Shown: piece after piece, positions 10,419 to 25,774 of the stretch
How positions within the stretch are numbered: position 1 is the stretch's first letter
Layout of the letters: the number at the start of each line of letters is the position of its first letter
Source: Tsukamurella sp. TY48
GTDB taxonomy: Bacteria; Actinomycetota; Actinomycetes; Mycobacteriales; Mycobacteriaceae
Assembly: GCF_019656655.1 (NCBI RefSeq)
Contig: NZ_BPMV01000001.1
Coordinates: 992,001 to 1,056,000 of the forward strand
DNA: 64,000 nucleotides
Reading direction: 5' to 3'
The notes under the pieces: generated by a model
Told to the model about the DNA's origin: nothing
Database searches by the model: none
Seen by the model: the letters and a program-made list of their open reading frames with translations, nothing else
Position numbers and translations under genes: made by a program

Positions 10419-10601
10419 TCAGCCGGCGCTGAGCCAGGAATCGTGTTCGTCGTCGGCGCGGATCACCGGGATGGGCCGGGTGATCGGCTCGGCCGGAACC
10501 TCGATACCGAAGGCCTCGATGAGGTGGTCGAACATGTCCTGGCGTTCCGCGGCGCGGATCGCGCGGGCGTGCGCCTCCTCGGGCGTCTCGTCGGGCAGCA
10601 T
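10419..10601 (-). CDS. Small acidic protein, third gene of candidate ESX-substrate operon
   Basis: This 60-residue protein starts at ATG 10601 behind a strong AGGAGG site that overlaps the stop of the 549-residue gene. An N-terminal amphipathic helix is likely (TPEEAHARAIRAAERQDMFD), followed by a Pro-rich, acidic tail with a single Trp. It has no signal or membrane segment. I do not recognise the family. Position and tight coupling suggest it works with the two upstream products, perhaps as a small chaperone or an accessory, but no motif supports a specific role. Confidence 0.7.
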   Translation of the reverse strand: MLPDETPEEAHARAIRAAERQDMFDHLIEAFGIEVPAEPITRPIPVIRADDEHDSWLSAG

Positions 10602-10609
10602 CGGGCCTC

Positions 10610-12259
10610 CTAGGGGACGGTGACGGCGAGTTCGGCGCCGCTGCCCTGCTGTTCGGGCGGGCACGGCTCCTCGGCGGGTGCACTCGGGGTCTGATCCCCC
10701 TGCTGCGGTGCGCCGGACTTCGGTCCCGGCGCCGGGGAGACAGCGGCCGGATCGGGGCCCGTGGACGCCGACGGCGTGGCGCCCTGGGACGCTCCGCCGA
10801 CGGATGCTCCGGGAGTACCGGTGTTCGCCGCGCCGCCTGTGGTTCCGGCGCCCGGGTTTCCAGCGCCAGTGGTTCCGGCGCCAGTGGTTCCAGCGCCCCC
10901 GGGGGTTCCAGCACCTGCGGTGCCGGCGGAGGGCTTATCGCTCGGCGTCGCTCCCGCGGGGACGGTGCCCGCGGGCTTGTCCTTCGCATCGTCGAGGGTG
11001 AGCTTGCCGTCTTCGCCCACCTTGAGCGTGGCCTTCTCCTGGGTGCCGTCCGGCTTCGTGACGGTGACGTCGACGGTCTTGCCGTCGGGACTGAGCTTCG
11101 CGGTCACGGTGTTGCCCTGCGCGTCCTTCGTCCCGGACGTGCCGTTCTTGTCGTCCTTGCCCTTGGCCTCGTCCTTGCCGTCCTTGCCGTCCTTGGCATC
11201 GGTCTTGTCGTCGGTCTTCCCGAGGCCGAGCTGCTCGGCGATCTTCGGTACCAGCTGCGACAGCCACGAGGGCATGCCGCCGCTCCCCGACGATCCGCTC
11301 AGCCCGGACAGCGGGTTGGTCGACGACGGTGTCGCCGATGCGGGCGTCGTACTGGCCGGCGTGATCCCGGTTGTGGGCGTCGTCGCCGTCGGGGTGCCGG
11401 TGGTGAGGCCCGACGGTGACGTGGTGCCGGTCTTCCCGCCTGTCGATCCTCCGGTCGAGCCGTCGGTGCCGGCGCCTCCCGTGGACCCGCCACCGGGCGA
11501 GGTGGTCCCGCCACCGCCCGGCGATGTGGTGCCGCCGCCACCGGGTGAGGTGCCGCCGGGGTTCGTCGTGCCGCCATTCGTCGAGCCACCGCCCGGTGAC
11601 GTATCGAACTGTGGGGCGGGGAAAGCGGAGGTATCCACCTTCGCTGCGGCGGGTACCGCTGCGTACGCCTTCTCGATCGCTGTCCGCGCCTCCGCGATGA
11701 TCGAATCGAACAGTTCCACGTCTTGGCTAAGCCGCGCTTCGAAATTGGCGACGAACTCCGCGTCGAGCAGCATCCCGCGAGGCATGGTCTCGAATTGCTG
11801 GGAGAGCGTCTCCGTTTCGGCCGCGGTGAACTCGGCATTCAGCTTGGCGACCTTCTGCGCGACCGCCGCAACGACCGCGCCATCGGCTGCATCCGCCGCG
11901 GTGGCGGAAGCCTCCAGCGAATCCGCGATGGGGGTACTCAGCTTCTGGTGGGCGTCGAGTGTGACCAACGCGGAACGCCCGGCCGAATCCGGCCATCCGC
12001 GGTCGACGTCACCCCGTGCGGCGGACTGGTCCGTGGCCGCCTGCCGCGCAACCGACGCCGCCTTGCGCAGCTTCGCCGCATCGGAGCGCAAGGCTTCGAG
12101 GTCAGTACCTCGCTCGTTGTCGTAGGCCCGACAGAAGTGATCACGCCAGTCCGGCCACTGCTTCGCGGAAATCATCGAGGCCACGTTCAACACGATCCGG
12201 AAGTACTGCAAGGGCGCGGCGCCGAGGTCGAGCATCGAATCGATCGTGCGATCAGCCAC
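10610..12259 (-). CDS. Large helical plus low-complexity protein, candidate type VII substrate
   Basis: The 549-residue protein has a helical N-terminal half (about residues 1-205) with a WXG100-like core: a long helix, a turn DRGWPDSAGRSAL near residue 90, and a second long helix. Residues about 215-330 are Gly/Thr/Ser/Pro repeats. A short SWLSQLVPKIAEQLGLG helix, a Lys/Asp-rich stretch and a beta-type segment follow (TVTAKLSPDGKTVDVTV), then a long Gly/Ala/Thr/Pro tail. It has no classical signal peptide. GTG 12259 overlaps the EspC-like stop by eight bases, so the two are coupled. This layout recalls EspB/PPE-type secreted partners. Function is unknown; secretion through ESX-4 is inference. 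Confidence 0.75.
   Translation of the reverse strand: MADRTIDSMLDLGAAPLQYFRIVLNVASMISAKQWPDWRDHFCRAYDNERGTDLEALRSDAAKLRKAASVARQAATDQSAARGDVDRGWPDSAGRSALVTLDAHQKLSTPIADSLEASATAADAADGAVVAAVAQKVAKLNAEFTAAETETLSQQFETMPRGMLLDAEFVANFEARLSQDVELFDSIIAEARTAIEKAYAAVPAAAKVDTSAFPAPQFDTSPGGGSTNGGTTNPGGTSPGGGGTTSPGGGGTTSPGGGSTGGAGTDGSTGGSTGGKTGTTSPSGLTTGTPTATTPTTGITPASTTPASATPSSTNPLSGLSGSSGSGGMPSWLSQLVPKIAEQLGLGKTDDKTDAKDGKDGKDEAKGKDDKNGTSGTKDAQGNTVTAKLSPDGKTVDVTVTKPDGTQEKATLKVGEDGKLTLDDAKDKPAGTVPAGATPSDKPSAGTAGAGTPGGAGTTGAGTTGAGNPGAGTTGGAANTGTPGASVGGASQGATPSASTGPDPAAVSPAPGPKSGAPQQGDQTPSAPAEEPCPPEQQGSGAELAVTVP
10838..10915. repeat. 15-base tandem repeats encoding Gly-Ala-Gly-Thr-Thr
   Basis: Units close to GGTTCCAGCGCCAGT recur about five times and encode the GAGTT/GAGNP repeats in the tail of the 549-residue protein. 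Such tracts can slip, so repeat number may vary between strains. Confidence 0.6.
11485..11610. repeat. Imperfect repeats encoding PGGGTTS units
   Basis: Repeats of about 18-27 bases built on CCGCCACCGGG encode successive Pro-Gly-Gly-Gly-Thr-Thr-Ser units between the helical and C-terminal parts of the 549-residue protein. This is probably a flexible linker. Confidence 0.6.
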
Positions 12260-12560: not shown

Positions 12561-12598
12561 GCGATCCCCCATCGCCCGTAGGTCCCCTACACCCATTG

Positions 12599-12624
12599 GA
12601 CGCATCAGCGGGCGGATCGGTTCC
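12599..12624 (-). promoter_or_regulatory. ECF-sigma (SigM-like) promoter of candidate substrate operon
   Basis: On the minus strand GGAAC (12624-12620) is followed by a 17-base spacer, CGATCCGCCCGCTGATG, and CGTC (12602-12599). GGAAC-N16-18-CGTC is a classic ECF promoter and is the form I recall for mycobacterial SigM. Fourteen of 17 spacer bases equal those of the promoter at 22917-22942, so this is unlikely to be chance. Transcription would start about 30 bases before the EspC-like ATG. Confidence 0.75.
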
Positions 12625-12632
12625 GCCCGACC

Positions 12633-13325
12633 TCAGGCGATGGCGCCGGCACCCCGGACAGCGACGAGGAGTCCGTCCGGACGTTGTGCCACGGGGACCG
12701 GGTCGACCTGCGCGAAGCCGCAGCCGATGGTGCGCGAGGCACCGTCGGCCTCGGCGCTGTCGCCGACCATCAGGACCTCCTCGGGCGGCAGGCCCAGCGC
12801 GGCGGACGCGACCCGGAAGATCTCGGCGTCGGGCTTCACGTGGCCCACCTCGAAGGAGAGGACGAACTCGTCGACCAGCCCGTCGATCCCCTCGCGCTCG
12901 AACGCGGGCCGGATGTCGTAACCGATGTTGGACAGCACCCCCACCTTCAGACCGGCATCGCGCACCGCCCGCAGCACGGCCGCCGTATCGGGATAGATCG
13001 TCCAGTTCAGCGGATCGGAGAACTCGCCGTAGAGCCGGCTGCGTTCGTCCGCGTCGGTGACCCCGGAGGACGCCATGACGTGCAGGTAGGCGTTGCGGTG
13101 GTCCTCGGAGCTGAGGTCGCGGGCGTGCCAGGTGCGCAGGGCATCGTCGTCCATCGGGACGGGCACGCCGACGGGCACCGTCATCCGGTACAGCAGCTCG
13201 CTCTGCGCGGCGTCGTCGAGCGGATGACCGTCCGGACCGGCGAGACCCGCGAACCACTGCGGGTCGGGTTCGAGCCGGAAGAGGGTCCCGGAGAAGTCGA
13301 AGAGCACGCCGCGGTAACTGGTCAT
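12633..13325 (-). CDS. HAD-superfamily hydrolase
   Basis: The 230-residue protein has HAD motif I LFDFSGTL (nucleophile Asp; the second position is Ser instead of Asp), motif II GVLSNIG, a Lys in GHVKPD and motif IV MVGDSAEAD. The all-helical cap between motifs I and II suggests a small phosphorylated substrate, or haloacid-dehalogenase-type chemistry given the altered motif I. The start is ATG 13325, preceded by TAGCAT at leaderless spacing and a LacI-type palindrome further upstream, so it probably has its own regulated promoter although glmM is upstream on the same strand. Confidence 0.85.
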   Translation of the reverse strand: MTSYRGVLFDFSGTLFRLEPDPQWFAGLAGPDGHPLDDAAQSELLYRMTVPVGVPVPMDDDALRTWHARDLSSEDHRNAYLHVMASSGVTDADERSRLYGEFSDPLNWTIYPDTAAVLRAVRDAGLKVGVLSNIGYDIRPAFEREGIDGLVDEFVLSFEVGHVKPDAEIFRVASAALGLPPEEVLMVGDSAEADGASRTIGCGFAQVDPVPVAQRPDGLLVAVRGAGAIA

Positions 13326-13345
13326 GGGCCCGATGCTACCGCCAA

Positions 13346-13359
13346 TCGAAACGTTTCGA
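13346..13359. promoter_or_regulatory. LacI-family-like palindrome before HAD gene
   Basis: TCGAAACGTTTCGA is a perfect 14-bp palindrome with the central CG and GAAACGTTTC core of LacI/GalR operators. It lies seven bases upstream of the TAGCAT box (13333-13338, minus strand), over the expected -35 region of the HAD gene, so repression is a reasonable guess. No LacI-type regulator is encoded in the window. Confidence 0.45.
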
Positions 13360-13367
13360 CCAGTGGG

Positions 13368-14702
13368 TCAGCCGATCAGGCCGGCGAGCCGCTCGGCGGT
13401 GCTGCGGGCGGCCTCCTCCGTGGGGGCCTCGACCATCACGCGCACCAGGGGCTCCGTCCCCGACGGACGCAGCAGGATGCGCCCCTCCTCGCCGAGGGCG
13501 GCCTCCTCCGCGGCGAGCGCGGCGGTGAGCGCCGGCGCCGCCATCGCGGCGGCCTTGTCGATCACGCGCACGTTCACCAGTACCTGCGGCAGCACCGTGA
13601 GGACCGCGGCGAGCTCGGCCAGCGAGCGTCCCGTCTGCGCCATCCGCTCCATCAGCTTGAGCCCGGTGAGCACACCGTCGCCGGTGGTACCGAAGCCCGG
13701 GAGCACCACGTGCCCCGACTGCTCGCCACCCAGCGCGTAGCCACCGGAACGCAGCTCCTCCAGCACATAGCGATCACCGACGGCGGTGGTGCGCAAGGTG
13801 ATTCCCGCCGCGCGCATCGCCAGATGCAGGCCGAGGTTGCTCATCACGGTGGCGACCAGCGTGTGGTCGGTGAGCTCGCCGGCCTCGTCCATCGCGATCG
13901 CGAGGATCGCCATGATCGCGTCGCCGTCGATGATCCGTCCGGACGCGTCGACCGCGAGGCAGCGGTCGGCGTCACCGTCGTGCCCGAGTCCGAGGTCGGC
14001 CTCGTGCGCGAGCACCGCGGCCTGCAGGCTCTCCAGATGCGTGGAACCGCAGTCGCGGTTGATGTTCAGGCCGTCGGGCACGTCGTGGATCGCGATCACC
14101 GTGGCACCGGCATCGCGGTAGGCCTTGGCGGCCACCGTCGCGGCGGCGCCGTTGGCGGCGTCGACCACCACGGTGAGTCCGGCGAGGGACCGGTGCACGG
14201 CCGACTCCAGATGCGCCACATAGCGATCGACGGCGTCGAAGGCGCGCTTGACGCGCCCGATCCCGGCGCCGGTGGGACGCGGCGGAGCCGGATCGTCCAG
14301 GGCCGCTTCGATCGCGTCCTCCTGGGCGTCCTCCAGCTTGTGCCCGCCGCGGGCGAAGAACTTGATGCCGTTGTCCGGCATGGGATTGTGCGAGGCGGAG
14401 ATCATCACGCCGAGTGCGGCGTCGTACTCCGCGGTGAGGTGCGCGACGGCGGGCGTGGGCATCACGCCGACGAGCAGCACGTCGACACCGGCACTGGTGA
14501 GGCCCGCCGAGACTGCGGCGGAGAGCATCTCACTGGAGGCGCGGGGGTCCCAGCCGACCACGGCGAAGGGACGGTCGGTGCCGTCCGGATCGTGCGCACC
14601 GAGCACCGCCGCCGCGGCGGCGGACAGCCGCAGTGCGAGATCGGCGGTCAGGTCCTTATTCGCCAGGCCGCGCACACCGTCGGTCCCGAACAGACGCCCC
14701 AT
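13368..14702 (-). CDS. glmM: Phosphoglucosamine mutase
   Basis: This 444-residue enzyme converts glucosamine-6-phosphate to glucosamine-1-phosphate for peptidoglycan and cell-wall synthesis. It begins [11 protein letters not shown]. The phosphoserine loop is [18 protein letters not shown], the Mg2+ loop is HDGDADRC, the sugar loop contains GGEQSGHV, and the C-terminal phosphate-binding loop is [13 protein letters not shown]. All four signature regions are intact. It follows rpsI on the same strand, as in mycobacteria, but a strong stem-loop in the 94-base gap separates them. Confidence 0.96.
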
Positions 14703-14742
14703 GAAGAATTCCTCACTGCAGAGAAGTGGTGGAGAAACGCGG

Positions 14743-14780
14743 CAGGGCAGGCACTCGCACGAATGCGAGTGCCTGCCCTG
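14743..14780 (-). terminator. Strong stem-loop between rpsI and glmM
   Basis: CAGGGCAGGCACTCGCA (14743-14759) is followed by loop CGAA and its perfect 17-base complement (14764-14780). The stable tetraloop hairpin lies just after the rpsI stop. The minus-strand sequence after it has a short TTTCTC, not a long U-tract. It probably ends or attenuates the ribosomal transcript before glmM. Confidence 0.75.
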
Positions 14781-14796
14781 TGCGAAGAGCCTGCAA

Positions 14797-15300
14797 TCAG
14801 CGCTTGCTGTACTGCGAAGCCTTACGGGCCTTCTTCAGGCCGTACTTCTTGCGCTCGACGGCACGCGGGTCACGCGTGAGGAAGCCGGCGCGCTTGAGCG
14901 CGGGGCGATCCTCGGGCGAGACCTCGATCAGCGCGCGGGCGATGGCCAGGCGCAGGGCGCCGGCCTGACCCGAGGGGCCGCCACCGGAGAGGTTGGCGGC
15001 GATGTCGAAGGACTCCAGGCGCTCAACGGTGACCAGCGGGTCCTTCACCAGCTGCTGGTGCAGCTTGTTGGGGAAGTAATCCTCGATGGTGCGGCCGTTC
15101 AGCACGAAGTTGCCGGTGCCGGCGGTCAGGCGCACGCGCACGACGGCCTCCTTGCGGCGACCGACGGTCTGGATGGGGCGCTCGACGACGACCGGGCCAC
15201 GGGGGGCGCGGGTCTCGGCCGAAGCCTCAGGGGTCTCCGAGGTGTACTCGTTGGGAACGACCTCGGCGTCGGTCTCGTTGGTCTCGATCGCGTCGCTCAC
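14797..15300 (-). CDS. rpsI: 30S ribosomal protein S9
   Basis: S9 is 167 residues here. An acidic, actinobacterial-type N-terminal extension (about residues 1-40) precedes the conserved body: [49 protein letters not shown], ending in [12 protein letters not shown], whose terminal Lys-Arg reaches the P-site tRNA. It starts at GTG 15300 and overlaps the rplM stop by four bases, so the two proteins are coupled. A terminator-like stem-loop follows. Confidence 0.97.
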
Positions 15301-15743
15301 TGAGCCACCTGCTTGATCTCGTAGGGAACCGGCTGCTGCGCGGCGTGGGGGTGGTTCGGGCCGGCGTAGACCTTCAGCTTGCCGCCGATGGCGCTGCCCA
15401 GCTTGTTCTTGGGGATCATGCCCAGAACAGCCTTCTGCACCACGCGCTCCGGGTTCGTGGAGCCGAGCACCTCACTGATCGTGCGGGACCGCAGGCCGCC
15501 CGGGAAGCCCGAGTGGCGGTAGTGCCGCTTGTCGGTGAGCTTGGCGCCCGAGAGGGCGACCTTCTCAGCGTTGATGATGATGACGTAGTCGCCGCCGTCC
15601 ACGTTGGGGGCGTAGGTCGGCTTGTGCTTGCCGCGCAGCAGGTTGGCAGCTGCGACGGCGAGGCGGCCGAGCACCACGTCAGAAGCGTCGATGACGTGCC
15701 ACTGGCGGGTCACGTCACCCGCCTTCGGGGTGTAAGTAGGCAC
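15297..15743 (-). CDS. rplM: 50S ribosomal protein L13
   Basis: L13 is 148 residues from GTG 15743, close to the usual 147. Conserved segments are [43 protein letters not shown] and [13 protein letters not shown] chose the GTG because AGAGGA lies six bases upstream and the product then begins [14 protein letters not shown], as in relatives; the frame stays open upstream but without conserved sequence. It is the first gene of rplM-rpsI. The 252-base region up to the divergent DoxX-like gene must hold its promoter; I see no other gene there. Confidence 0.97.
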
Positions 15744-15995
15744 AGGAGGTCCTCTGCTCGATGGTTCGGTGCCGGTCCCGTGCGCAGCGAGAGCACTCCC
15801 GGCGACCAACGGAGACCCGGGACTCGACTCCGCACCACCCCATCAGGGCAGCGCGGCGCCACACACCAGCGCACCAGAGTACGCGGGACCTGGGGTGCAG
15901 GTCAAAACGCGAGGACGCACCCCGGGGACGAATCAGGGGACGAACCGGGGCCTTCCCCGATGTGACGGTGCCATCACTCGTCCTACCTTTCCCTC

Positions 15996-17369
15996 ATGTC
16001 CACTCCGACCACACCGGTGACGCCGTCCGCCGACCTACCGTCCGACTCCCCCGACGATGCCGCACCGTCGGCCCCGCAGCCCTGGACCACCGCACAGAAG
16101 GTGGCCTTCCGGCTGCTCTTCACCCTCGGTGGAGGACTGCTGATCCTGGCCGTCTTCGGCAGCCTGTTCCTCGCGCCGATCATGCCGCCGGTCCAGGCGG
16201 TGTTCGCCCGGCTCTGGGCCGCCGTGAGCGGCACCGACTACAACCCGCCGCAGATCACCGGCACCGGCGACACACTCGCGATCTGGCAGTACCACCTGGG
16301 CTGGCTGGTGGTCGGGCTCGTGATCACCGCGATCTGGTCGCTGCTGGACCGCAATCGCACCGACTACCGCTCACTGGGCGGCCTGCTGTGGCGGGTGGCC
16401 CGGTTCGCGCTGGCCATCGGCATGATCTTCTACGGCATGGCGAAGGTGATCCCCACCCAGATGGGCGCGATGGCCCTGCCCAGCTACGCCCTCACCCCGT
16501 CGGGCGATGTGAGCCGGATGAACGTGCTGTGGGGATTCATGGGCGCCTCCGACGGCTACTCCATCGTCACCGGCCTGGTCGAGCTGATCTCCGGGCTGCT
16601 CCTGCTGTCCCGGCGGACCTGGGCGGTGGGCGCGCTCGGCGCCATCGTGTCCATGGGGCAGGTGGTCCTGCTCGACACCTTCTACAACGTGCCGGTCAAG
16701 TTCCTGGCCTTCGAATTCCTGGTGATCGCCGTCGCCATCCTCGCGCCGTACTGGCCGAACATGCTGCGGGCCGTGCTCGGCAAGACCTCCGGGCCCGCTC
16801 CCACGATCTGGCCGGCCGCCGGTGCCGACCGCACCTGGCTGCGCCGGACCGGCACGGGACTGGCCGGGCTGGTCACCGTGGTCATGCTGGTGCTGCCCGC
16901 GACGATCGGGGTGCTGTCGCTGAGCGTGATCAAGTCCCCGCGCACCACCCTCGACGGGACCTGGCACACCACCTCCTTCCACATCGACGGTCGCCAGGCG
17001 ACCCTCGGCGCCGACGAGGACGGACTGCCCTGGGCCAATATCGCGATCACCTACCGCGGCCCCGGGCTGATCGCGTCGGAGGGCGATGGCTACAACAACC
17101 TGGTCACCCAGGACACCGCCGCCCGGGTGACCCCCTGGTTCCTCACCGTCGATGAGACGACACTGGACATCAAGCGCCGCAAGGACGATCAACCCGTGCG
17201 CCTGGAGTACCGCCAGCCCGACGCCGATCACCTGACCCTGGTGGGCACCGTCGACGGCAAGCGGATCGCGGCGAGTTACGAACGGCGAGCGATGCTTCGG
17301 GACTCCGAGAAGGTGAAGTTCACCCACCCCGAACCCGATCCGCAGCGACCGATCGAGGTGTTCCCGTGA
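15996..17369 (+). CDS. DoxX-like membrane protein with C-terminal soluble domain (copy 1)
   Basis: The 457-residue protein has a disordered N-terminus (about 1-27), seven or so hydrophobic segments between 28 and 310, and a hydrophilic beta-rich C-terminal domain of about 145 residues beginning LDGTWHTTSFHIDGR. A conserved segment FYGMAKVIPTQMG lies between helices, and WGFMGASDGYSIVTGLVELISG follows. The helical core resembles DoxX/DoxD-type proteins, but I do not recognise the full architecture. Start ATG 15996 is preceded by TACCTT at six bases, a leaderless arrangement. It is the first of two tandem paralogues. Confidence 0.8.
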   Translation: MSTPTTPVTPSADLPSDSPDDAAPSAPQPWTTAQKVAFRLLFTLGGGLLILAVFGSLFLAPIMPPVQAVFARLWAAVSGTDYNPPQITGTGDTLAIWQYHLGWLVVGLVITAIWSLLDRNRTDYRSLGGLLWRVARFALAIGMIFYGMAKVIPTQMGAMALPSYALTPSGDVSRMNVLWGFMGASDGYSIVTGLVELISGLLLLSRRTWAVGALGAIVSMGQVVLLDTFYNVPVKFLAFEFLVIAVAILAPYWPNMLRAVLGKTSGPAPTIWPAAGADRTWLRRTGTGLAGLVTVVMLVLPATIGVLSLSVIKSPRTTLDGTWHTTSFHIDGRQATLGADEDGLPWANIAITYRGPGLIASEGDGYNNLVTQDTAARVTPWFLTVDETTLDIKRRKDDQPVRLEYRQPDADHLTLVGTVDGKRIAASYERRAMLRDSEKVKFTHPEPDPQRPIEVFP

Positions 17370-17430
17370 CCGTCGCGATCGATGACAACTGTCACTAGGA
17401 GATGTGGTGAACGATCCCTACCCTTCAGAT

Positions 17431-18801
17431 ATGACCGCACCCGAGAATCCCGCGCCGCCCGTCGCCGACACCGACGCGGCCACGCCGGAGCCCCGCTGGA
17501 CGGACGGCCAGAAGGTCGCCTTCCGGCTGCTGTTCGTGACCGGCGGCGGACTCCTGCTGCTGTCGGTGTACGGCAACATCGGACTCGGATCCCTCTGGTA
17601 CGTCACCGGAATCTGGTGGGCCCTGGCCCAGATCGGCAGCTACGCCGCCCGCGGTGAGGGCGTGGACGTGGTGCTCGCCTCGGGCGGCGATCAGATGTGG
17701 ATGTGGTGCATGCACCTCGGCTGGATCCTGGTGAGCCTGGTGATCGTCGCGGTCTGGACGGCGCTCGCCCGGAAGAGCGATCGCCCGAACTACCGATCGC
17801 TGGGCGGGCTCCTGGAGATCTTCGCGCGGTACGGCCTGGCGATCTCGATGCTCTACTACGGCTTCGCCAAAGCGATCCCCACCCAGATGGGCTTCATGCA
17901 GCTGCCGGCTCATCAGCTCCAGCTCACCGGCGACACCAGCCTGTTCAACACGCTGTGGGGATTCATGGGCGCCTCGGACGGCTACTCGATCGTGACCGGG
18001 CTGATCGAGCTCGCCGCGGGCTTGCTGCTGCTGTTCCGCCGGACCGCCCTGGTCGGATCGATCGTGGCGATCGTCGCGACCACGCAGGTCGCGATCCTCG
18101 ACCTGTTCTACGACGTGCCGGTGAAACTGGTGGCCTGGGAGCTGCTGGTGATCGCCGTCGCCCTCACCGCCCGGTACTGGCGGCCGCTGCTGCTGGTGGC
18201 CTTCAACCGCGACGGCGCACACCCGGTGCCCGCGCTGCCCGTCGCCGGAGCGCAGCGGAAGTGGGTGCGCGTCACCGGCTATTCGCTGAAATCGATCATG
18301 ACCGCGTTCGTCCTGATCACCGGCATCGTGCAGGGCGGCGTGCTGTACTACGTGATCCACACGCCCCGCTCGGACCTGGACGGAACCTGGCGGGCCACGT
18401 CGTTCACCATCGACGGGCGGCCCGCGGCGCTCACCGACCGCGGGCCCGCCCCGTGGCCGAATCTCGCGATCACCCTGCGCGGCAACGCCGACAACGCCAC
18501 CCTGAAGATGTTCAGCACCGGCTACGACAGCGTGGTCACCCAGGAGGTGTCCGGCTACACCACCGCCTGGCTCACCGAGCAGAAGGGCGACGTGCTCGAA
18601 CTCCGCAAGAACAAGGGCGATGCGCCGCTGCCCCTGACCACCCGGCTGGACGGCGAACGGCTGTACGTCTCGGCCACCGTCGACGGCAAGCGTGTCGAAG
18701 GTGTTTACGAGCGCCGGTTCATGGAGCGCGACCGCTCCCGGATCCGGCTGATCCAGCCCGACGACGAATGGGGCGCGCCCAGCGCCGAACAGGGCAACTA
18801 G
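17431..18801 (+). CDS. DoxX-like membrane protein with C-terminal soluble domain (copy 2)
   Basis: This 456-residue paralogue keeps the same layout: disordered start, WTDGQKVAFRLLF, helices, YYGFAKAIPTQMG, WGFMGASDGYSIVTGLIELAAG, and a C-terminal domain beginning LDGTWRATSFTIDGR. I chose ATG 17431 because TACCCT stands six bases upstream, exactly as in copy 1; GTG codons at 17404 and 17407 with AGGAG nearby are alternatives. Its stop codon and that of eccC share the palindrome CTAG. The function is unknown; the extracytoplasmic domain may sense or bind something. Confidence 0.8.
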   Translation: MTAPENPAPPVADTDAATPEPRWTDGQKVAFRLLFVTGGGLLLLSVYGNIGLGSLWYVTGIWWALAQIGSYAARGEGVDVVLASGGDQMWMWCMHLGWILVSLVIVAVWTALARKSDRPNYRSLGGLLEIFARYGLAISMLYYGFAKAIPTQMGFMQLPAHQLQLTGDTSLFNTLWGFMGASDGYSIVTGLIELAAGLLLLFRRTALVGSIVAIVATTQVAILDLFYDVPVKLVAWELLVIAVALTARYWRPLLLVAFNRDGAHPVPALPVAGAQRKWVRVTGYSLKSIMTAFVLITGIVQGGVLYYVIHTPRSDLDGTWRATSFTIDGRPAALTDRGPAPWPNLAITLRGNADNATLKMFSTGYDSVVTQEVSGYTTAWLTEQKGDVLELRKNKGDAPLPLTTRLDGERLYVSATVDGKRVEGVYERRFMERDRSRIRLIQPDDEWGAPSAEQGN

Positions 18802-21800
18802 GCCTCCTCGTCCGGGTGCACCATGGCCACCTGAATGAGCTCGGTGCCCCGGGCGCGGGAGACCCAGGTGCCGCGACCGGGCGGCATCTGGCTCATCCGC
18901 ACCGAGCCGAGCACCGTGCCCTCGTCGCGGGAACCGCTCATCACCAGGCCATCGGCACCGAGGTCGCGGACCCGGGCGAGGAAGGGCTCGAACATACCGC
19001 GCGCGAGACCACCACTGCGCCGGGCGATCACCACCTTCAAGCCCACATCGCGGGCCTGCGGCAGCAGGTCCATCAGCGGGCTGAGCGGGTTGCCCGCCGG
19101 GCCCGCGACCAGGTCGTAGTCGTCGATCACCAGGTAGACATCGGGACCGGTCCACCACGACCGCTCCTTGAGCTGCTGCGGGGTGACGTCCGGCCCCGGG
19201 CAGCGTCCCTTGAGCACCTCGGCGAGCTGGTTCACCAAGGTGGTCAACGTCTCCGCGGTCGAGGCGTAACCGGCGAGATGCTCGCCCTCCACCGCGCCGA
19301 GCAGCGTGCGGCGGTAGTCCACCAGCAGGATCTTCGTCTGCTTCGGCGTGCCGGCCGCGATCAGCGAGGTCATCAGGGTGCGCAGGGCCTCCGTCTTACC
19401 GCACTCAGTCTCGCCGAGCATGAGGAAGAAGGGCTGCGACTCGAACTGCAGGGTGGCCGCGGCCAGCTCGGACTCGCCGATACCGAGGACGGCGTGCGTC
19501 GACGGTGCGCCGCGCCGCGCCGGAATCCGGTCCAGCTGCACCCGTTCCGGCAGCATCCGCACCTCGGGCGCGCGCTCCTCGTACTGCGCGGCGATCTCGG
19601 CCACCGCGGCGGCCTGCGCCACCGGCACGTCCTCGGACGGTGCGCCGCAGGGCAGCGCGACCAGCATGTGCAACTGCTCGGACGTGAGGCCGCGACCGGG
19701 ACGCCCGACCGGGACGAGCGAGGCCACGCGGCGTCCCATCTCCGAGTCCATCGGGTCGCCGAGCCGCAGCTCGATCCGCGTACCCAGCTGGTCCTTGACC
19801 GCCGGGCGCACCTCGCCCCACCGCGACGCGGCGATCACCAGGTGCACGCCGTACGAGAGTCCCTGCGCGGCGATCGCGTTCACCTGCGGCTCCAGGGCCT
19901 CGAACTCGGTGCGCAGCACCTGCCATCCGTCGATCACGAGGAAGACGTCACCGAACGGATCGCGCTGCGCCGCAGGATGGTCGCGGTACTGCGCCATCGA
20001 CTCCACGCCGTGCTCACGGAAGGCCGCCTCCCGCCGCCGGATCACGGAGGTGACCTCGGCGACGGTGCGCCGGACCCGGTCCGGATCGAGCCGTCCGGCG
20101 ACGGAGCCCACGTGCGGCAGGCCGGACAGGCCCGCGAGCGAACCGCCACCGAAGTCGAGCACGTAGAACTGCACCTGCCGCGGGGTGTGCGTGAGCGACG
20201 ACGACAGGATCAGTGTGCGCAGCGCGGTCGACTTACCCGACTGCGGGCCGCCCACCACCGCCACGTTGCCCTGGGCGCCGAACAGGTCCACCACCAGCAG
20301 GTCACGGCGCTGATCGTACGGCCGGTCGACGATGCCGACGGCCACCCGCAGGGGCGTCTGGTCGACGCGGCGCAGGTGCTCCGCCAGCTCGCCGACGGCC
20401 GACGACTCGTCGAGCGGCGGCAGCCACACCTCGTGCGCCGGGAGGCCGTGACCGGAGAGCTTGCCGACCATGGTCTGCAGCACGGACATCCCCGAACCGA
20501 CGGGCTCGCGCTTCGGCGCCGGATCGCCGGGCTGCGCCGGGATGCGCATGAGGCCGTCGGGCAGGCCCGTGCGCTGCGGCTGCTCCACCGGGACCGGCTC
20601 GATCCCGAACAGCCGCACCGGCCCCGCGGCGGCGCTGGAACCGAAGCGTGCGGTACCGGCCACCGCCACCTGCGGCGGTACGTACTCGCCGGAGACGTAG
20701 CTGGCATGGAACCGGCGGGGCGGATCGGCGTCGAACTTGAGGTATCCCGCGCCCGGCGTGGACGGCAACTGGTAGGCATCGGGAACGCCCAGCACCGCGC
20801 GGGATTCGCTGGCCGAGAAGGTCTTCAGGCCGATCCGGTAGGACAGGTGCGAGTCCAAGCCGCGCAGCTTGCCCTCCTCGAGCCGCTGCGAGGCGAGCAG
20901 CAGGTGGATGTGCAGCGACCGGCCGAGGCGGCCGATGGCCACGAACAGCTCGGCGAAATCCGGTTTCTGCGAGAGCAGTTCGGAGAACTCGTCGACGATC
21001 ACCACGAGCGCGGGCATCGGGTCCAGCGGGGCTCCCGCCCGGCGGGCCTTCTCGTACTCGCCGACGTTCGCGAAGTTGCCCGCCCGGCGCAGCAGCTCCT
21101 GGCGACGGTTCATCTCGCCCGACAGCGCATCGCGCATGCGGTCGACCATGGCGATCTCCTCTTCGAGGTTGGTGATCACCGCCGCCACGTGGTTGAGCGA
21201 TTCGAGCCCGAGGAAGGTGGCGCCGCCCTTGAAGTCGACCAGCACCAGGTTGAGCGCCTCCGGCGGGTGCGTGGCCACCATCGACAGCACCAGCGTCCGC
21301 AGGAATTCACTCTTGCCGGAACCCGTGGCGCCGATGCACAGCCCGTGCGGGCCCATCCCGTTCTCGGCCGCCTCCTTCAGGTCCAGTTCCACCGGCTCGC
21401 CGCGCGGCCCCACACCGATCGGCACACGCAGCCGCTCCCGCGCTGTGCGCGGGCGCCACGCGGTCTCGGGGCTCACGGCCGCGGCGTCGGACAGCCCGAT
21501 CAGCGCGGGAAGCCCCGGATCGCCGGGACCCGCGTCGGCGTCGAAGTCGACGAGCTGCGCCACCGATGCCGGCCGGTAGCGGCCGATCCGGCGCGCGGTC
21601 ACCTGTGCGCCGCCCGCTGTCACCGAGTCCGGGCGGGCGAAGAACTCGACCCCCGCGGCGCTACGGGCGCCGAGCCGGTCGCTCTCGTCGACCACCAGTT
21701 GCAGGCCACTGCGGGTGGCGAGCGCCCCGGGTTCGGGGCTCAGGTCGATGAGGGTGACGCCGTCGATCCCGACGGCGGCGTCGAGCGGGCCACCGGGGGT

Positions 21801-22808
21801 GACCACGATGCCGCGGTCGAGCACGATCACGTGGTGCACCCGGGTGGGGTCCACCGGGGTGGCGCGGGCGAAGGCACCGCGATCCGCGAGGTCGGGCCCG
21901 ATGGAGTCCTCCAGCTCGGCCGCGGAGCCGAAGATCAACCGGATCGGCCCCAGCGCGTCGGATGCCGTGGGGTGCGCCGCGTGCGGCAGCCACTTGAGCC
22001 AGGACCACTCGGCGGATTCCGCATCGTCGGTGGCGACCGCGATCCGCACGTGATCGGGACCGTGCAGCGTCACCAGGCTCAGCAACACGGCGCGCACCGC
22101 GTCGTAAGCCGCGGCGCGCGGACCGTCGACCCCGACCGCGGGGAAACCGCGCAGGGCCACCGCCACCGGGAGCCCCGGCACCGCCGCGTTGCGGCGCACG
22201 AACCGGCGCAGCGCCACCGTCGACACCGGTTCGAGGTCTTCGAGCGGGCCGGTCTCCGGCGGCACCAGCCGGGTGGCCAGCCGCTGGCTCCCGATGCCGA
22301 CACGTACGTGCAGGAAATCGGGGTCGCTGGGCCGGCGCTCCCACATCCGGCGGGTGCCGACGCACCCCGCGAGCGCGGCGGGATCGGGATGGATCCACTC
22401 GAGCGCGGCGCGCTGCTCACCGCGGGTGCGTTCCACCTGACCGCGCACCTGCCCCAGGTACCGCAGATAGTCCTTGCGATCCTCGTTGAGCTCGGCGGCG
22501 TTGGGCCCGTTGCGATTGCCGTTCATGCCGTACATGCCGGCCATCGACATCAGCATCATCAGCGGGAACATCATCATGAACGGGCTCTGCATCATGGTGC
22601 TGCCCGAGGTGAACATCAGCGCCACCATGCCGATGACGGCCACCACCATCACCACCGGCAGCAGCTTGCCCAGCAGGCCGCCCGGCACGGCGCGCGGCAC
22701 CTCGGGCGGTGCCTGCAGCGCCACCTCGCCCCCCGGGGCACGCGGCGGCGCCAGGCGCTGCTTGCGCGCGAATCCCTCGGTGACCGGCTCGAACACCACG
22801 TCAGCCAC
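18798..22808 (-). CDS. eccC: ESX-4 type VII secretion ATPase EccC
   Basis: EccC is the motor of the type VII secretion membrane complex. The 1336-residue protein has two transmembrane helices near residues 50-110 and three FtsK/SpoIIIE ATPase domains with Walker A motifs GATGSGKSEF (about 490), GGPQSGKSTA (about 856) and GETECGKTEA (about 1136). Only the first has a full Walker B (VIVDEFSEL); the second (VIDGW) and third (VIDDYD) lack the catalytic Glu, as is usual for EccC. Start GTG 22808 has GGGGGAGG six bases upstream and gives the normal N-terminus. It diverges from eccD-mycP. The gene order matches mycobacterial ESX-4. Confidence 0.95.
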   Translation of the reverse strand: MADVVFEPVTEGFARKQRLAPPRAPGGEVALQAPPEVPRAVPGGLLGKLLPVVMVVAVIGMVALMFTSGSTMMQSPFMMMFPLMMLMSMAGMYGMNGNRNGPNAAELNEDRKDYLRYLGQVRGQVERTRGEQRAALEWIHPDPAALAGCVGTRRMWERRPSDPDFLHVRVGIGSQRLATRLVPPETGPLEDLEPVSTVALRRFVRRNAAVPGLPVAVALRGFPAVGVDGPRAAAYDAVRAVLLSLVTLHGPDHVRIAVATDDAESAEWSWLKWLPHAAHPTASDALGPIRLIFGSAAELEDSIGPDLADRGAFARATPVDPTRVHHVIVLDRGIVVTPGGPLDAAVGIDGVTLIDLSPEPGALATRSGLQLVVDESDRLGARSAAGVEFFARPDSVTAGGAQVTARRIGRYRPASVAQLVDFDADAGPGDPGLPALIGLSDAAAVSPETAWRPRTARERLRVPIGVGPRGEPVELDLKEAAENGMGPHGLCIGATGSGKSEFLRTLVLSMVATHPPEALNLVLVDFKGGATFLGLESLNHVAAVITNLEEEIAMVDRMRDALSGEMNRRQELLRRAGNFANVGEYEKARRAGAPLDPMPALVVIVDEFSELLSQKPDFAELFVAIGRLGRSLHIHLLLASQRLEEGKLRGLDSHLSYRIGLKTFSASESRAVLGVPDAYQLPSTPGAGYLKFDADPPRRFHASYVSGEYVPPQVAVAGTARFGSSAAAGPVRLFGIEPVPVEQPQRTGLPDGLMRIPAQPGDPAPKREPVGSGMSVLQTMVGKLSGHGLPAHEVWLPPLDESSAVGELAEHLRRVDQTPLRVAVGIVDRPYDQRRDLLVVDLFGAQGNVAVVGGPQSGKSTALRTLILSSSLTHTPRQVQFYVLDFGGGSLAGLSGLPHVGSVAGRLDPDRVRRTVAEVTSVIRRREAAFREHGVESMAQYRDHPAAQRDPFGDVFLVIDGWQVLRTEFEALEPQVNAIAAQGLSYGVHLVIAASRWGEVRPAVKDQLGTRIELRLGDPMDSEMGRRVASLVPVGRPGRGLTSEQLHMLVALPCGAPSEDVPVAQAAAVAEIAAQYEERAPEVRMLPERVQLDRIPARRGAPSTHAVLGIGESELAAATLQFESQPFFLMLGETECGKTEALRTLMTSLIAAGTPKQTKILLVDYRRTLLGAVEGEHLAGYASTAETLTTLVNQLAEVLKGRCPGPDVTPQQLKERSWWTGPDVYLVIDDYDLVAGPAGNPLSPLMDLLPQARDVGLKVVIARRSGGLARGMFEPFLARVRDLGADGLVMSGSRDEGTVLGSVRMSQMPPGRGTWVSRARGTELIQVAMVHPDEEA

Positions 22809-22896
22809 GAACGGCCTCCCCCACACACCTGCGGCGCGCCCCCACGCGCCGTCGTGCCACCACTGTGCACTGCCGGGCCGCCGCCGTCGAGCCCTT

Positions 22897-22911
22897 CGAC
22901 GAACTTCGTCG
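22897..22911. promoter_or_regulatory. Palindrome upstream of ESX-4 ECF promoter
   Basis: CGACGAACTTCGTCG is a perfect 7-bp dyad around a central C, ending six bases before the -35 element of the eccD promoter and within the eccC/eccD divergent region. It could bind a dimeric regulator acting on eccD-mycP, on eccC, or both. No known consensus is recognised. Confidence 0.4.
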
Positions 22912-22916
22912 GAAGT

Positions 22917-22942
22917 GGAACCGATCGGCCCGCTCGTGCGTC
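22917..22942 (+). promoter_or_regulatory. ECF-sigma (SigM-like) promoter of eccD-mycP
   Basis: GGAAC (22917-22921), the 17-base spacer CGATCGGCCCGCTCGTG and CGTC (22939-22942) form a full ECF-type promoter. Transcription would start about 48 bases before eccD. From established knowledge, SigM activates ESX-4-linked esx genes in M. tuberculosis and recognises this type of motif. The matching promoter is at 12599-12624. Confidence 0.75.
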
Positions 22943-22997
22943 TAATTGACATCGGGCCCGGTCGCGGGCCTGGAGAACGGCATGCGAGGGGGACGCT

Positions 22998-24491
22998 ATG
23001 ACCGATCTGGTGGAGGGCACGGAGACGGAGGTTGCGCGGCTGAGCCGCGTGTCGGTGCTGTGCGGGGGCGCGCAGGTCGATGTCTCACTGCCCTTGCAGA
23101 CACCGACCGAGGTGTTGATCCCGGAGCTGATCCGGCTCTTCGGCGATCGCATCTCGGGTACCGCGGAAGCCGCATGGGCCCGGCCGTGGCGGCTGGCACC
23201 GGTGGGCGGCGAACCGCTGCCCGGGCCGCAGACGCCCGCGGATGCGGGCATCACCGAGGGCGACCTGCTGGTGCTGTTCGTCGCGGAGGCCGCGCCGCCG
23301 CCCGCCGTGTTCGACGACGTCTTCGACACCGCGGCGGGCGATCTCGCGACCGGTACCCGGTGGAACGAGCGCGCCGCGATGATCGTGGGCCTGATCGTGC
23401 TGGCCGGCGCCACGCTGGCCACCGCCGCGGTGAGCCTGCGCCTCGGGCTCGGGCCGCGCGGGGAATCCGGTGCCCGCCCCGCGGTGGACGGTGTTTTCGC
23501 GCTGCTGTGGACTGCGGGCGCCGCGCTCCTGCTCTTGGTCGGTGCCGGTACCTCGGTGCGACGCCTCACCGGCTCGGGGCCCGTGCCCACCGCCCTGGCG
23601 AGCTGCGCCACGGTGCTCGCCGCCACCGCCGGTGTGCTCGCCGTCCCGCTCGGGGTGGACGGCCGCTACGGCGCCCCGCACGCCCTGCTCGGGGTGGTCG
23701 CCGCCGCGGTGACCGCCGTTGTCGCGCTGCGCATCACCGGCCGCGGAACGGTGGTGCACATCGCCGTCATCACCGCCGCCGCGGTGGTGGCGCCCGCCCT
23801 GTTCGCGGCGCTGTGGCTGCCCGGTCGCCGCGCTGCGATCGCCGCGACCGTGGCCGTGGCCGCGTACATCGTGATCACCTTCGCCGCCCGGATCGGCGCA
23901 TCGGTCGCGCGACTGCCGCTGCCGAAGGTGCCCGCCGCGGGCGAACGGATCGATCCGATCGACGACGAGCCGCCGCCCACCGTCGCGGGGGTCGGCGCCG
24001 TCGCTGTCGGCCTGAGCGAGGAGGCCGGGGCGCCGCCGCGCACCGGGTACGCACAGCAGGTGTGCTCCGGGATCACCGTGGGCGCCGCGGCGGCCGGGTC
24101 GATCGCCGCGCTCCTCGTGGGAGCGGTGGCACGCGAACTCCCCTTGCACCACATCGCTTTCGCCGCCGTGATCGCGATCGCGTACTGCCTCCGCGGTCGC
24201 ACGCACGGCGATCCGGTTCAGGCCGGTTCGGTGATCCTCGGCGGCAGCGCGGTGGCGATCGGCACCGCGACCAGCCTGGCGTGGGGCTACGGCGTGTGGC
24301 CGGTGCTGGGCCTGGTGACGCTCGCCGCGATCGCCGGACTGGCCGTGGCCTGCGGCGTGGGCGCGCCTCGCATCACCTTCAGTCCCATCCAGCGACGGTT
24401 CGCGGAACTCGGTGAGTACCTGACCATCGCGGCTGCGGGACCGCTGCTCGGGTGGGTGTGGGACGTGTACGCCACCGTCCGGAACCTGTGA
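22998..24491 (+). CDS. eccD: ESX-4 type VII secretion membrane channel protein EccD
   Basis: The 497-residue EccD has an N-terminal ubiquitin-like domain (about residues 12-95: RVSVLCGGAQVDVSLP to EGDLLVLFV) and then about eleven transmembrane helices in two groups around a polar loop at 300-340. It forms the main membrane barrel of the ESX core complex with EccB and EccC. ATG 22998 has GAGGGGGA upstream. The mycP start overlaps its stop by one base. It is transcribed divergently from eccC with 189 bases between them, containing the ECF promoter and a palindrome. Confidence 0.92.
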   Translation: MTDLVEGTETEVARLSRVSVLCGGAQVDVSLPLQTPTEVLIPELIRLFGDRISGTAEAAWARPWRLAPVGGEPLPGPQTPADAGITEGDLLVLFVAEAAPPPAVFDDVFDTAAGDLATGTRWNERAAMIVGLIVLAGATLATAAVSLRLGLGPRGESGARPAVDGVFALLWTAGAALLLLVGAGTSVRRLTGSGPVPTALASCATVLAATAGVLAVPLGVDGRYGAPHALLGVVAAAVTAVVALRITGRGTVVHIAVITAAAVVAPALFAALWLPGRRAAIAATVAVAAYIVITFAARIGASVARLPLPKVPAAGERIDPIDDEPPPTVAGVGAVAVGLSEEAGAPPRTGYAQQVCSGITVGAAAAGSIAALLVGAVARELPLHHIAFAAVIAIAYCLRGRTHGDPVQAGSVILGGSAVAIGTATSLAWGYGVWPVLGLVTLAAIAGLAVACGVGAPRITFSPIQRRFAELGEYLTIAAAGPLLGWVWDVYATVRNL

Positions 24492-25774
24492 TGCGGCGCG
24501 CGCTCGTCGGGATCGCGACCGCGGGATTGCTGGTGGCCGTCGGAGCCCCGGCCGGCGCCGCGCCGCCCGCCTCCGATCCACCGCCCGACGGTGCGCCGCG
24601 GGGCCCCATCGCCCCGCTCGCTCCGACCGTGCAGAAGACGCAGTGCCACACCCTCAAGACCGTGCCCGGGACCGATTACACCCGTGCCGATCACGCGCTC
24701 CGCTCGCTGCGCTACGACCAGGCGTGGAAGTTCACCCGCGGCGAGGGCCAGAAGGTGGCGGTGATCGACACCGGGGTCACACCGCACCCGCGGCTGGGCG
24801 AGGTGATCCCCGGCGGCGATTACGTCTCCTCGGGCGACGGCCGCGACGATTGCGATGCGCACGGCACCGCGGTGGCGGGCATCATCGCGGCGCGGCCGGC
24901 GCCGGGCGATGCCTTCGTCGGCGTCGCTCCCGGTGCGTCGATCATCGCGATCCGGCAGGCCAGCCAGGCCTTCGAGCCCAAGGACCGCGGCGCCAACAGC
25001 CACGGGAACGTGACCACGATGGCCTACGCCGTGACCCGCGCGGTCGATCTGGGCGCCACCGTCATCAACATCTCCGAGGTGGCCTGCGGCGGCGCGGGAA
25101 CGAACCTGGGCGACGATGCGCTCAGCCGCGCCGTGCGTTTCGCCTTCGACCGCAACGTGGTCGTGGTGGCCTCCGCGGGCAACGTGGGACGCGACGGCGC
25201 GTGCTCGGCGCAGAACGAGACACCCGGATCACCGGTCACCGTCGCCTCCCCGGCCCGGTTCTCCGAACACGTGATCACCGTGGCGGCCACCGAACCGGAC
25301 GGCCGCGCGGCCTCGTTCTCCCTCGCCGGACCGTGGGTGGCCGTCGCCGCACCGGGCACCGATGTGACCACGCTCGAACCGCGCGGCGGCGGGCTGGTGA
25401 ACGGCCAGACCACCCGCGAGGGCATCACCCCGCTCGCGGGGACCAGCTTCGCCGCGCCCTACGTGGCCGGCGTCGCCGCGCTGGTGCGCGCCCGCTTCCC
25501 GCAGCTCACCGCGGCCCAGGTGCGGGCCCGGATCCTGTCCACCGCCCGCGACGCCGCCGCATTGCCTGCCGGGGCGCTGGGCGCGGGCATCGTCGACCCG
25601 GTCGCGGCACTCACCGCGGACCTGCCCGACGGGGCCACCAGGGCCGGGAGCCTCGACCTGCCGGCGCCGCCACCGCGCGACGACCGGCCGCGTACCACGG
25701 CACTCGCCGGTGCGGGCCTGCTCGCCGTCGCGGCGGCCGCCTTCTGCCTGTCCCGGCGCACTCGCCGGGACTAG
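24491..25774 (+). CDS. mycP: ESX-4 type VII secretion mycosin protease MycP
   Basis: This 427-residue subtilase is anchored outside the membrane and is needed for a stable ESX system. Residues 1-23 are a Sec signal ending AGA-AP. The triad is Asp93 (VAVIDTGV), His124 (DAHGTAVAG) and Ser319 (LAGTSFAAPYVAG). A Pro-rich stretch and a C-terminal helix (about 401-420) before SRRTRRD follow, the mycosin anchor. Start ATG 24491 overlaps the eccD stop. In mycobacterial ESX-4 the next gene is eccB; here an aldo/keto reductase takes that place and points the other way. Confidence 0.95.
   Translation: MRRALVGIATAGLLVAVGAPAGAAPPASDPPPDGAPRGPIAPLAPTVQKTQCHTLKTVPGTDYTRADHALRSLRYDQAWKFTRGEGQKVAVIDTGVTPHPRLGEVIPGGDYVSSGDGRDDCDAHGTAVAGIIAARPAPGDAFVGVAPGASIIAIRQASQAFEPKDRGANSHGNVTTMAYAVTRAVDLGATVINISEVACGGAGTNLGDDALSRAVRFAFDRNVVVVASAGNVGRDGACSAQNETPGSPVTVASPARFSEHVITVAATEPDGRAASFSLAGPWVAVAAPGTDVTTLEPRGGGLVNGQTTREGITPLAGTSFAAPYVAGVAALVRARFPQLTAAQVRARILSTARDAAALPAGALGAGIVDPVAALTADLPDGATRAGSLDLPAPPPRDDRPRTTALAGAGLLAVAAAAFCLSRRTRRD

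Follow-up and report, generated by a model that had tools for sequence, protein, structure and literature searches.

Within a 64,000-nucleotide stretch of the Tsukamurella sp. TY48 genome (contig NZ_BPMV01000001.1, positions 992,001 to 1,056,000; hereafter the window), we analysed the promoters of two gene groups: eccD4-mycP4, which belong to the type VII secretion system (T7SS) ESX-4, and an operon encoding an EspC-like protein, a 549-residue protein and a 60-residue protein. The same long motif, conserved throughout the genus, lies in front of both. That the two sites are promoters of one regulon of the extracytoplasmic function (ECF) type, so that eccD4-mycP4 and the EspC-like operon would be co-regulated, is strongly supported by the sequence comparisons described below.

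The original prediction had read GGAAC-N17-CGTC at plus-strand positions 22917-22942 and at minus-strand positions 12624-12599. Both readings were confirmed, the first site being GGAACCGATCGGCCCGCTCGTGCGTC followed by TAAT and the second GGAACCGATCCGCCCGCTGATGCGTC followed by CAAT. This short motif has three copies in the window where 1.06 are expected, a count reached in 10 of 100 shuffles, and the genome scan proposed for it (GGAAC-N16-18-CGTC) gave 271 matches against 188 for the reversed pattern; such weak evidence led us to reject the short form. The promoter elements are extended in Tsukamurella, with GGAACCGATC at -35 and CTGGTGCGTCYAAT at -10. The extended motif GGAACCGATC-N6-CTGGTGCGTC[C/T]AAT matched the window exactly twice and none of 100 shuffles. 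Similarly, the 30-mer GGAACCGATC-N10-TGCGTCYAAT recovered just the two reported sites in the 64 kb when up to 3 mismatches were allowed, and had no match in 100 dinucleotide shuffles of the window. As had been stated, the two spacers share 14 of their 17 bases, and this likeness had been taken as the sign of a special pair. However, agreement of at least 14/17 was seen in 22% of the pairs that 64 genus sites form, and in 5 of the 78 pairs formed by the 13 sites of the TY48 genome, because the spacer ends belong to the motif. As proof of a special pair the likeness was thus largely rejected; it adds at most mild support.

At the scale of the 4.37 Mb genome, the core GGAACCGATC-N11-GCGTC has 7 exact sites, and 46 at up to two mismatches compared to 9 for the reversed pattern. 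A fuller form, GGAACCG-N14-GCGTCYAAT, has 12 exact sites (19 against 7 reversed at up to two mismatches). A 25-mer with the spacer one base shorter had no exact match and a single one at one mismatch; at 3 mismatches it gave 632 matches against 194 reversed. The exact core is present in 15 of 16 Tsukamurella genomes, with 1-11 sites each, and its reversed control in none of the 16. eccD4 was detected in 15 of these genomes (G003 is absent from the matches) and is preceded by the motif in all 15, exactly in 12, with one mismatch in 2 and with two in 1. The EspC-like gene was also detected in 15 of 16, the exception being the fragmented G012, and again the motif lies upstream of all 15 copies, perfectly matched in 11, with one mismatch in 3 and, in G011, with three in the 30-mer. 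At up to 3 mismatches the 30-mer found no other site in 17 stretches from 14 genus genomes. The EspC-like locus of G001 contains inside it an extra 26-mer match with one mismatch, which lacks the YAAT end and is not among the 30-mer matches. Orthologous genes within the genus hence share an extended -35/-10 motif, as expected of SigM-dependent promoters. We retain the proposed link between the operon and ESX-4 in the form of a joint ECF regulon, on the conservation upstream of each gene and not on the spacers. A further SigM-type site was observed on contig 2 of G004 (99,806 bases, stretch L193), which has a plasmid-like look.

A site profile was built from 64 distinct genus sites picked by GGAAC-N16-GCGTC[CT]AA[TC], whose specified positions are fixed by this choice. 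It revealed CGATC following GGAAC and CTGGT preceding GCGTC; past CGTC, a purine-T-purine occupies bases 7-9. Some of the downstream genes begin with ATG or GTG at this purine-T-purine or at most 2 bases away from it, which suggests leaderless messages with a transcription start near that purine. Families of very small open reading frames (ORFs) of about 50-75 residues were seen near the expected start of SigM-type sites in stretches L060, L061, L081 and L184 and in L062, L200, L204 and L054.

We then considered which sigma factor may read the motif, whose short GGAAC/CGTC form is that of the SigM consensus. The genome has 14 matches to sigma region 2, among them sigM. Downstream of sigM lie, in order, a copy of the motif, the gene of a 215-residue protein, and genes recognized by eye as trxB and trxA. 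The 215-residue protein contains a single hydrophobic stretch and matched no family; from these features and its position we infer an anti-sigma role and call it rsmA-like. The order sigM, motif, rsmA-like gene is found in the TY48 genome and at 7 of 28 genus loci, so that the motif is a cis neighbour of both sigM and the anti-sigma-like gene. Because this copy sits between the two genes, SigM is likely the reader of both window promoters. The original prediction named SigM as driving ESX-4-linked esx genes in M. tuberculosis, and control of ESX-4 by SigM is already known in mycobacteria. The portions consulted of PMC10117145, PMC8593097 and PMC9514802 report that SigM switches on esx-4 genes, that its overproduction also activates esxU/T and esxE/F, and that a membrane anti-SigM restrains SigM. 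In M. smegmatis cell contact leads to inactivation of anti-SigM and release of SigM (excerpts among PMC10117145, PMC8593097, PMC9514802, PMC11791044 and PMC10449499). Rip1 regulates SigM via its anti-sigma factor, and more ESX-4 substrates are said to await discovery (excerpts among the same five papers and PMC6963305).

In order to define the candidate regulon, we collected 89 listed exact cores from 14 of the 15 other genus genomes, dropped 5 identical ones to keep 84 with distinct first 60 bases, and assigned each site to the first matching gene within 420 bases. The first gene was rsmA-like at 13 sites, eccD4 at 11, EspC-like at 10, a 126-137-residue protein followed by a DUF3558 lipoprotein at 14, DUF6802 at 8 and a YbaB operon at 4. 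These six recurring gene sets account for 60 of the 84 sites, 34 of which precede eccD4, the EspC-like operon or rsmA. The 12 full sites of the TY48 genome gave a similar picture. Six precede, respectively, a YbaB/110/309 operon, a 137-residue protein with DUF3558, a 415-residue protein, nothing clear, the EspC-like operon and eccD4; the other six precede DUF6802, the rsmA-like gene, a 53-residue ORF, a PE-PPE-EspG-Esx-Esx series, a 126-residue protein with DUF3558 and a 431-residue protein. Three Gly/Pro-rich proteins encoded downstream of SigM-type sites (L049:6817-8064, L137:5638-6933 and L134:8546-9910) have in common a C-terminal tail with H-x-x-P-x-Y-L, then N-G-E, then P-L-V-G-P. The 415- and 431-residue ones are 36% identical, and the 454-residue one matches over 42 residues. 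In some genomes the core was also seen before proteins resembling, by eye, AbiEi-type regulators (L147, L153, L164 and L209).

The three-gene operon is itself conserved at 15 of 15 genus loci, with an EspC-like protein of 98-113 residues, a partner of 546-698 and a third protein of 56-60. Among the 15 homologues, 6 EspC-like proteins match PF10824 (EspC family) at E <= 1, and 14 partner N-termini match PF25547 (WXG100_2) at the same threshold, the best at 5.9e-5. The nearest named relative found for the 549-residue protein is from Tsukamurella sp. M9C (50% over residues 1-220). The 60-residue protein had no Pfam match, searched as an 81-residue ORF, and no NCBIfam match. Profile searches of the PDB returned nothing convincing. 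An EspC-like start at 12605 was ruled out, as it lies inside the -10 element; conservation points to 12560. Open frames of 659-896 residues in 9 of 15 genomes raised the possibility of a fusion between the EspC-like and 549-residue proteins, which was rejected since two genes are present in all 15. At their junction the partner starts 3 bases past the stop in 8 loci and overlaps by 8-11 bases in 6; the two genes are 57 apart in G010, where the search for starts was limited.

The operon had been described as distant from ESX-4. It actually lies about 10 kb away from eccD4, directly beyond HAD-glmM-rpsI-rplM, and so flanks the ESX-4 locus. We took 8 regions from other genera, of which one (L174, genome G081) contains an ESX-4 locus, in the intact order glmM, rpsI, rplM, two Esx genes, a 498-residue gene, eccC4 and eccD4. 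Copies of the core are found there upstream of the Esx pair and also of a 112-residue gene with a 320-residue partner directly past glmM, both copies ending in CAAC. The 320-residue protein fits the partner profile (E = 1.8e-6). For the 112-residue one the match to the EspC-like profile is weak (E about 0.15; 1e-5 in a small set), and its PF10824 score of 22.3 is under the cut-off of 23.5. Because G081 holds a like pair with the motif beside glmM in an intact ESX-4 order, the position of the operon on the ESX-4 flank is probably ancient. Two adjacent, similar-looking membrane proteins of 457 and 465 residues (window 15996-18801, plus strand), with no Pfam match over cut-off, lie between rplM and eccC4, in the place of the Esx pair of G081.

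The window ESX-4 genes are eccC4, eccD4 and mycP4. Both EccB matches of the genome lie elsewhere, one in a second T7SS and the other in a PE-PPE-EspG-Esx-EccB stretch (Table 1). Since the genome has two EccB and two EccD, and in view of its neighbours, the EccB at 2.77 Mb with its stretch may serve the EccC4 and EccD4 of the window. In this stretch a SigM-type site precedes PE at 2769928, exact in the fixed bases of GGAACCG-N14-GCGTCYAAT, and another precedes the EspC-family gene at 2768174 with two mismatches in the fixed bases. The Esx pair and eccB are separated by an ORF on the opposite strand, and eccB may therefore be transcribed independently of the site before PE. Two further WXG100 genes over cut-off at C1:2.70 Mb have no motif copy in the stretch examined. 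The second T7SS (C1:1.56-1.58 Mb) has its own EccD, EccB, PPE and EspG and, by eye, EccC, MycP and EccE. The label 'ESX-3-like' was dropped for it, as its gene content fits ESX-4EVOL, which the part consulted of PMC4791881 describes in T. paurometabola as a cluster related to ESX-4 that contains pe, ppe and espG.

Table 1. Promoters and genes discussed in the text. Plain coordinates are window positions; those with the prefix C1 are genome positions. Scores are given against the family cut-off.
Feature	Position	Strand	Basis
SigM-type promoter of eccD4-mycP4	22917..22946	+	GGAACCGATC-N11-GCGTC-TAAT; conserved 5' of eccD4 in 15/15 genus genomes with eccD4
SigM-type promoter of EspC-like operon	12595..12624	-	GGAACCGATC-N11-GCGTC-CAAT; conserved in 15/15 genus genomes with the EspC-like gene
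EspC-like protein, 102 residues	12252..12560	-	PF10824, 19.2 bits < 23.5; alignment of 15 homologues
549-residue partner	10610..12259	-	N-terminal ~220 residues weakly WXG100-like, then Gly/Pro/Thr/Ser-rich tail
60-residue third gene	10419..10601	-	conserved in 15/15 genus loci
eccD4, T7SS membrane protein	22998..24491	+	PF19053/PF08817; TIGR03920 (NCBIfam), 229.2 > 94.95 bits
mycP4, mycosin protease	24452..25774	+	TIGR03921 (NCBIfam), 385.7 > 278.75
eccC4 ATPase, divergent from eccD4	18798..22811	-	TIGR03924/TIGR03925 over cut-off; start 22811 by eye
glmM, ESX-4 flank	13368..14702	-	by eye; same order of homologues in L174
rpsI, then rplM, next to glmM	14797-15300, 15297-15749		by eye
sigM	C1:1879375-1880013		SigM NF007225 (NCBIfam), 210.5 > 190
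PE-PPE-EspG-Esx-EccB stretch	C1:2766266-2775836 (L134:6266-15836)		1.75 Mb from window; begins beside rplQ/truA-like genes (by eye)
Other EccB	C1:2774418-2775836		TIGR03919, 415.5 > 154
Rv3446c-family gene	in C1:2766266-2775836		TIGR03931, 80.1 > 47.6
EspC-family gene (+ 454 residues)	in C1:2766266-2775836		over Pfam cut-off, 29.4 > 23.5
PE, PPE, EspG	in C1:2766266-2775836		PF00934, 45.2 > 22; PF00823, 38.8 > 26; PF14011, 55.2 > 27
Two WXG100/Esx	in C1:2766266-2775836		PF06013, 49.5 and 40.6 > 27.3; TIGR03930, 50.6 over and 41.6 under 44.85

A family survey of 201 genomes, 15 of them from this genus, found the exact core in 111 genomes and in 24 of 31 genera, with no match of the reversed control in any of the 201. 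We read 30 loci outside the genus among the matches listed. None matches the EspC-like or the 60-residue profile, and the partner profile gave one match at chance level (E = 0.63). Support beyond the genus comes from the core and is thinner for the full motif.

On these grounds we consider it probable, taken as a whole, that SigM promoters drive joint transcription of eccD4-mycP4 and the operon, and that a helical-hairpin pair leaves the cell via ESX-4. SigM would be freed from a membrane-anchored anti-sigma factor whose own gene would be transcribed from a SigM-type promoter, providing negative feedback. RNA polymerase would start about 7 bases past CGTC, and eccD4-mycP4 and the operon, on the opposite ESX-4 flank, would be transcribed at the same time. 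The EspC-like protein and its 549-residue WXG100-like partner would most likely form a hairpin pair of the EspC/EspA or PE/PPE kind and exit via ESX-4, with the 60-residue protein as a small helper; as ESX-4 cargo the operon products are plausible. Several observations weigh against this explanation. The EspC-like protein is under the gathering cut-off of its family, and the 549-residue protein scores 14.4 bits for PF25547 where 27 are needed, hence the labels EspC-like and WXG100-like. eccC4 has no SigM-type site on its own strand, the best minus-strand match in 22601-23000 having 7 of 15 mismatches, and the genome scan found no full-motif copy before sigM itself. Among the 84 genus sites, 24 fall outside the six recurring gene sets; about half of these 24 lie before very small, leaderless-looking ORFs, and the 4 genus sites without the [CT]AA[CT] end are all in this group. 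A further 14 precede the helical protein and DUF3558 lipoprotein, genes without a proven T7SS link, and neither DUF6802 nor the very small ORFs are obvious T7SS substrates. Outside the genus the [CT]AA[CT] end is found at 6 of the 30 loci read, compared to 80 of 84 genus sites, and many of the core matches there may be something other than this promoter.

Alternatively, the EspC-like pair could be exported by the second T7SS. Co-regulation by SigM would then hold, and the operon would encode cargo or an accessory of that system, or proteins that are not exported, within a common stress or contact response. This alternative, which we regard as possible though doubtful, gains from the second EccD and EccB with PPE and EspG in the genome, from the regulon genes without a T7SS look and from M. 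abscessus, whose EsxU/T partly exit via ESX-3 according to the portion consulted of PMC11791044. However, the operon flanks ESX-4 in the genus, a similar pair lies on that flank in one genome from a different genus, and no extended motif was found at up to 5 mismatches in the examined stretch of the second T7SS (L052, L139).

The motif could also be read by one of the other ECF sigma factors, the placement beside sigM and rsmA being incidental. ECF sigma motifs do resemble one another, but the recurrent motif between sigM and the anti-sigma-like gene, the rsmA-like genes behind 13 of the 84 sites and the mycobacterial precedent make this improbable. As for chance, a high-G+C sequence freely yields GGAAC/CGTC pairs, which is largely true of the short motif; the extended core, with its empty reversed control across the family and its conservation at orthologous positions, refutes such an origin for the extended motif in the genus, and we give composition almost no credit as an explanation of the two sites.

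The tie of SigM to ESX-4 genes makes this regulon similar to the one known, from the same partly consulted reports, in M. tuberculosis and M. smegmatis. Compared to it, Tsukamurella sites precede eccD4-mycP4, the EspC-like/549/60 operon and the PE-PPE-EspG-Esx genes near the eccB 1.75 Mb away, and also DUF3558 lipoprotein operons and Gly/Pro-rich proteins. The espACD operon of the M. tuberculosis ESX-1 system encodes a small EspC-type protein with a larger partner. Our operon resembles it in this gene pairing, whereas its small protein is below the EspC cut-off, its partner is just weakly WXG100_2-like, and it has a SigM-type promoter and adjoins ESX-4. Rv3440c-Rv3439c of M. tuberculosis lie next to glmM, the place of the motif-bearing EspC-like and partner pair of G081, and may be orthologous to the operon pair; position and that one locus are the basis of the comparison. 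The literature searched gave one remark on them: in the part consulted of PMC6963305, Rv3439c is Ppr2, a Rip1 PDZ-interacting protein. The pe, ppe and espG content of ESX-4EVOL (PMC4791881, in part) resembles the 1.57 Mb cluster, a comparison made without a tree, while the SigM-type promoter sits at the PE-PPE-EspG-Esx stretch at 2.77 Mb. We found no description of the operon as ESX-4 cargo in the literature searched, which did not include the original reports on the SigM regulon (Raman 2006, Agarwal 2007, Clark 2018).

We tentatively extend these results to a broader proposal, which we think rather unlikely in its full form: the extended SigM motif would mark most ESX-4 cargo in Tsukamurella, and a looser form would do so family-wide. 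This cargo would comprise the EspC-like/WXG-partner/60-residue operons, the PE-PPE-EspG set, the DUF3558 lipoprotein operons and the Gly/Pro-rich proteins with a common C-terminal tail. Release of SigM would lead to joint production of this cargo and the export machine, reuniting an ESX-4 system that is split 1.75 Mb apart. Few ESX-4 substrates are known. A long motif almost free of background in the genus yields a short list of candidates for them, and ties an unnamed three-gene operon to SigM, its likely reader, and to ESX-4.

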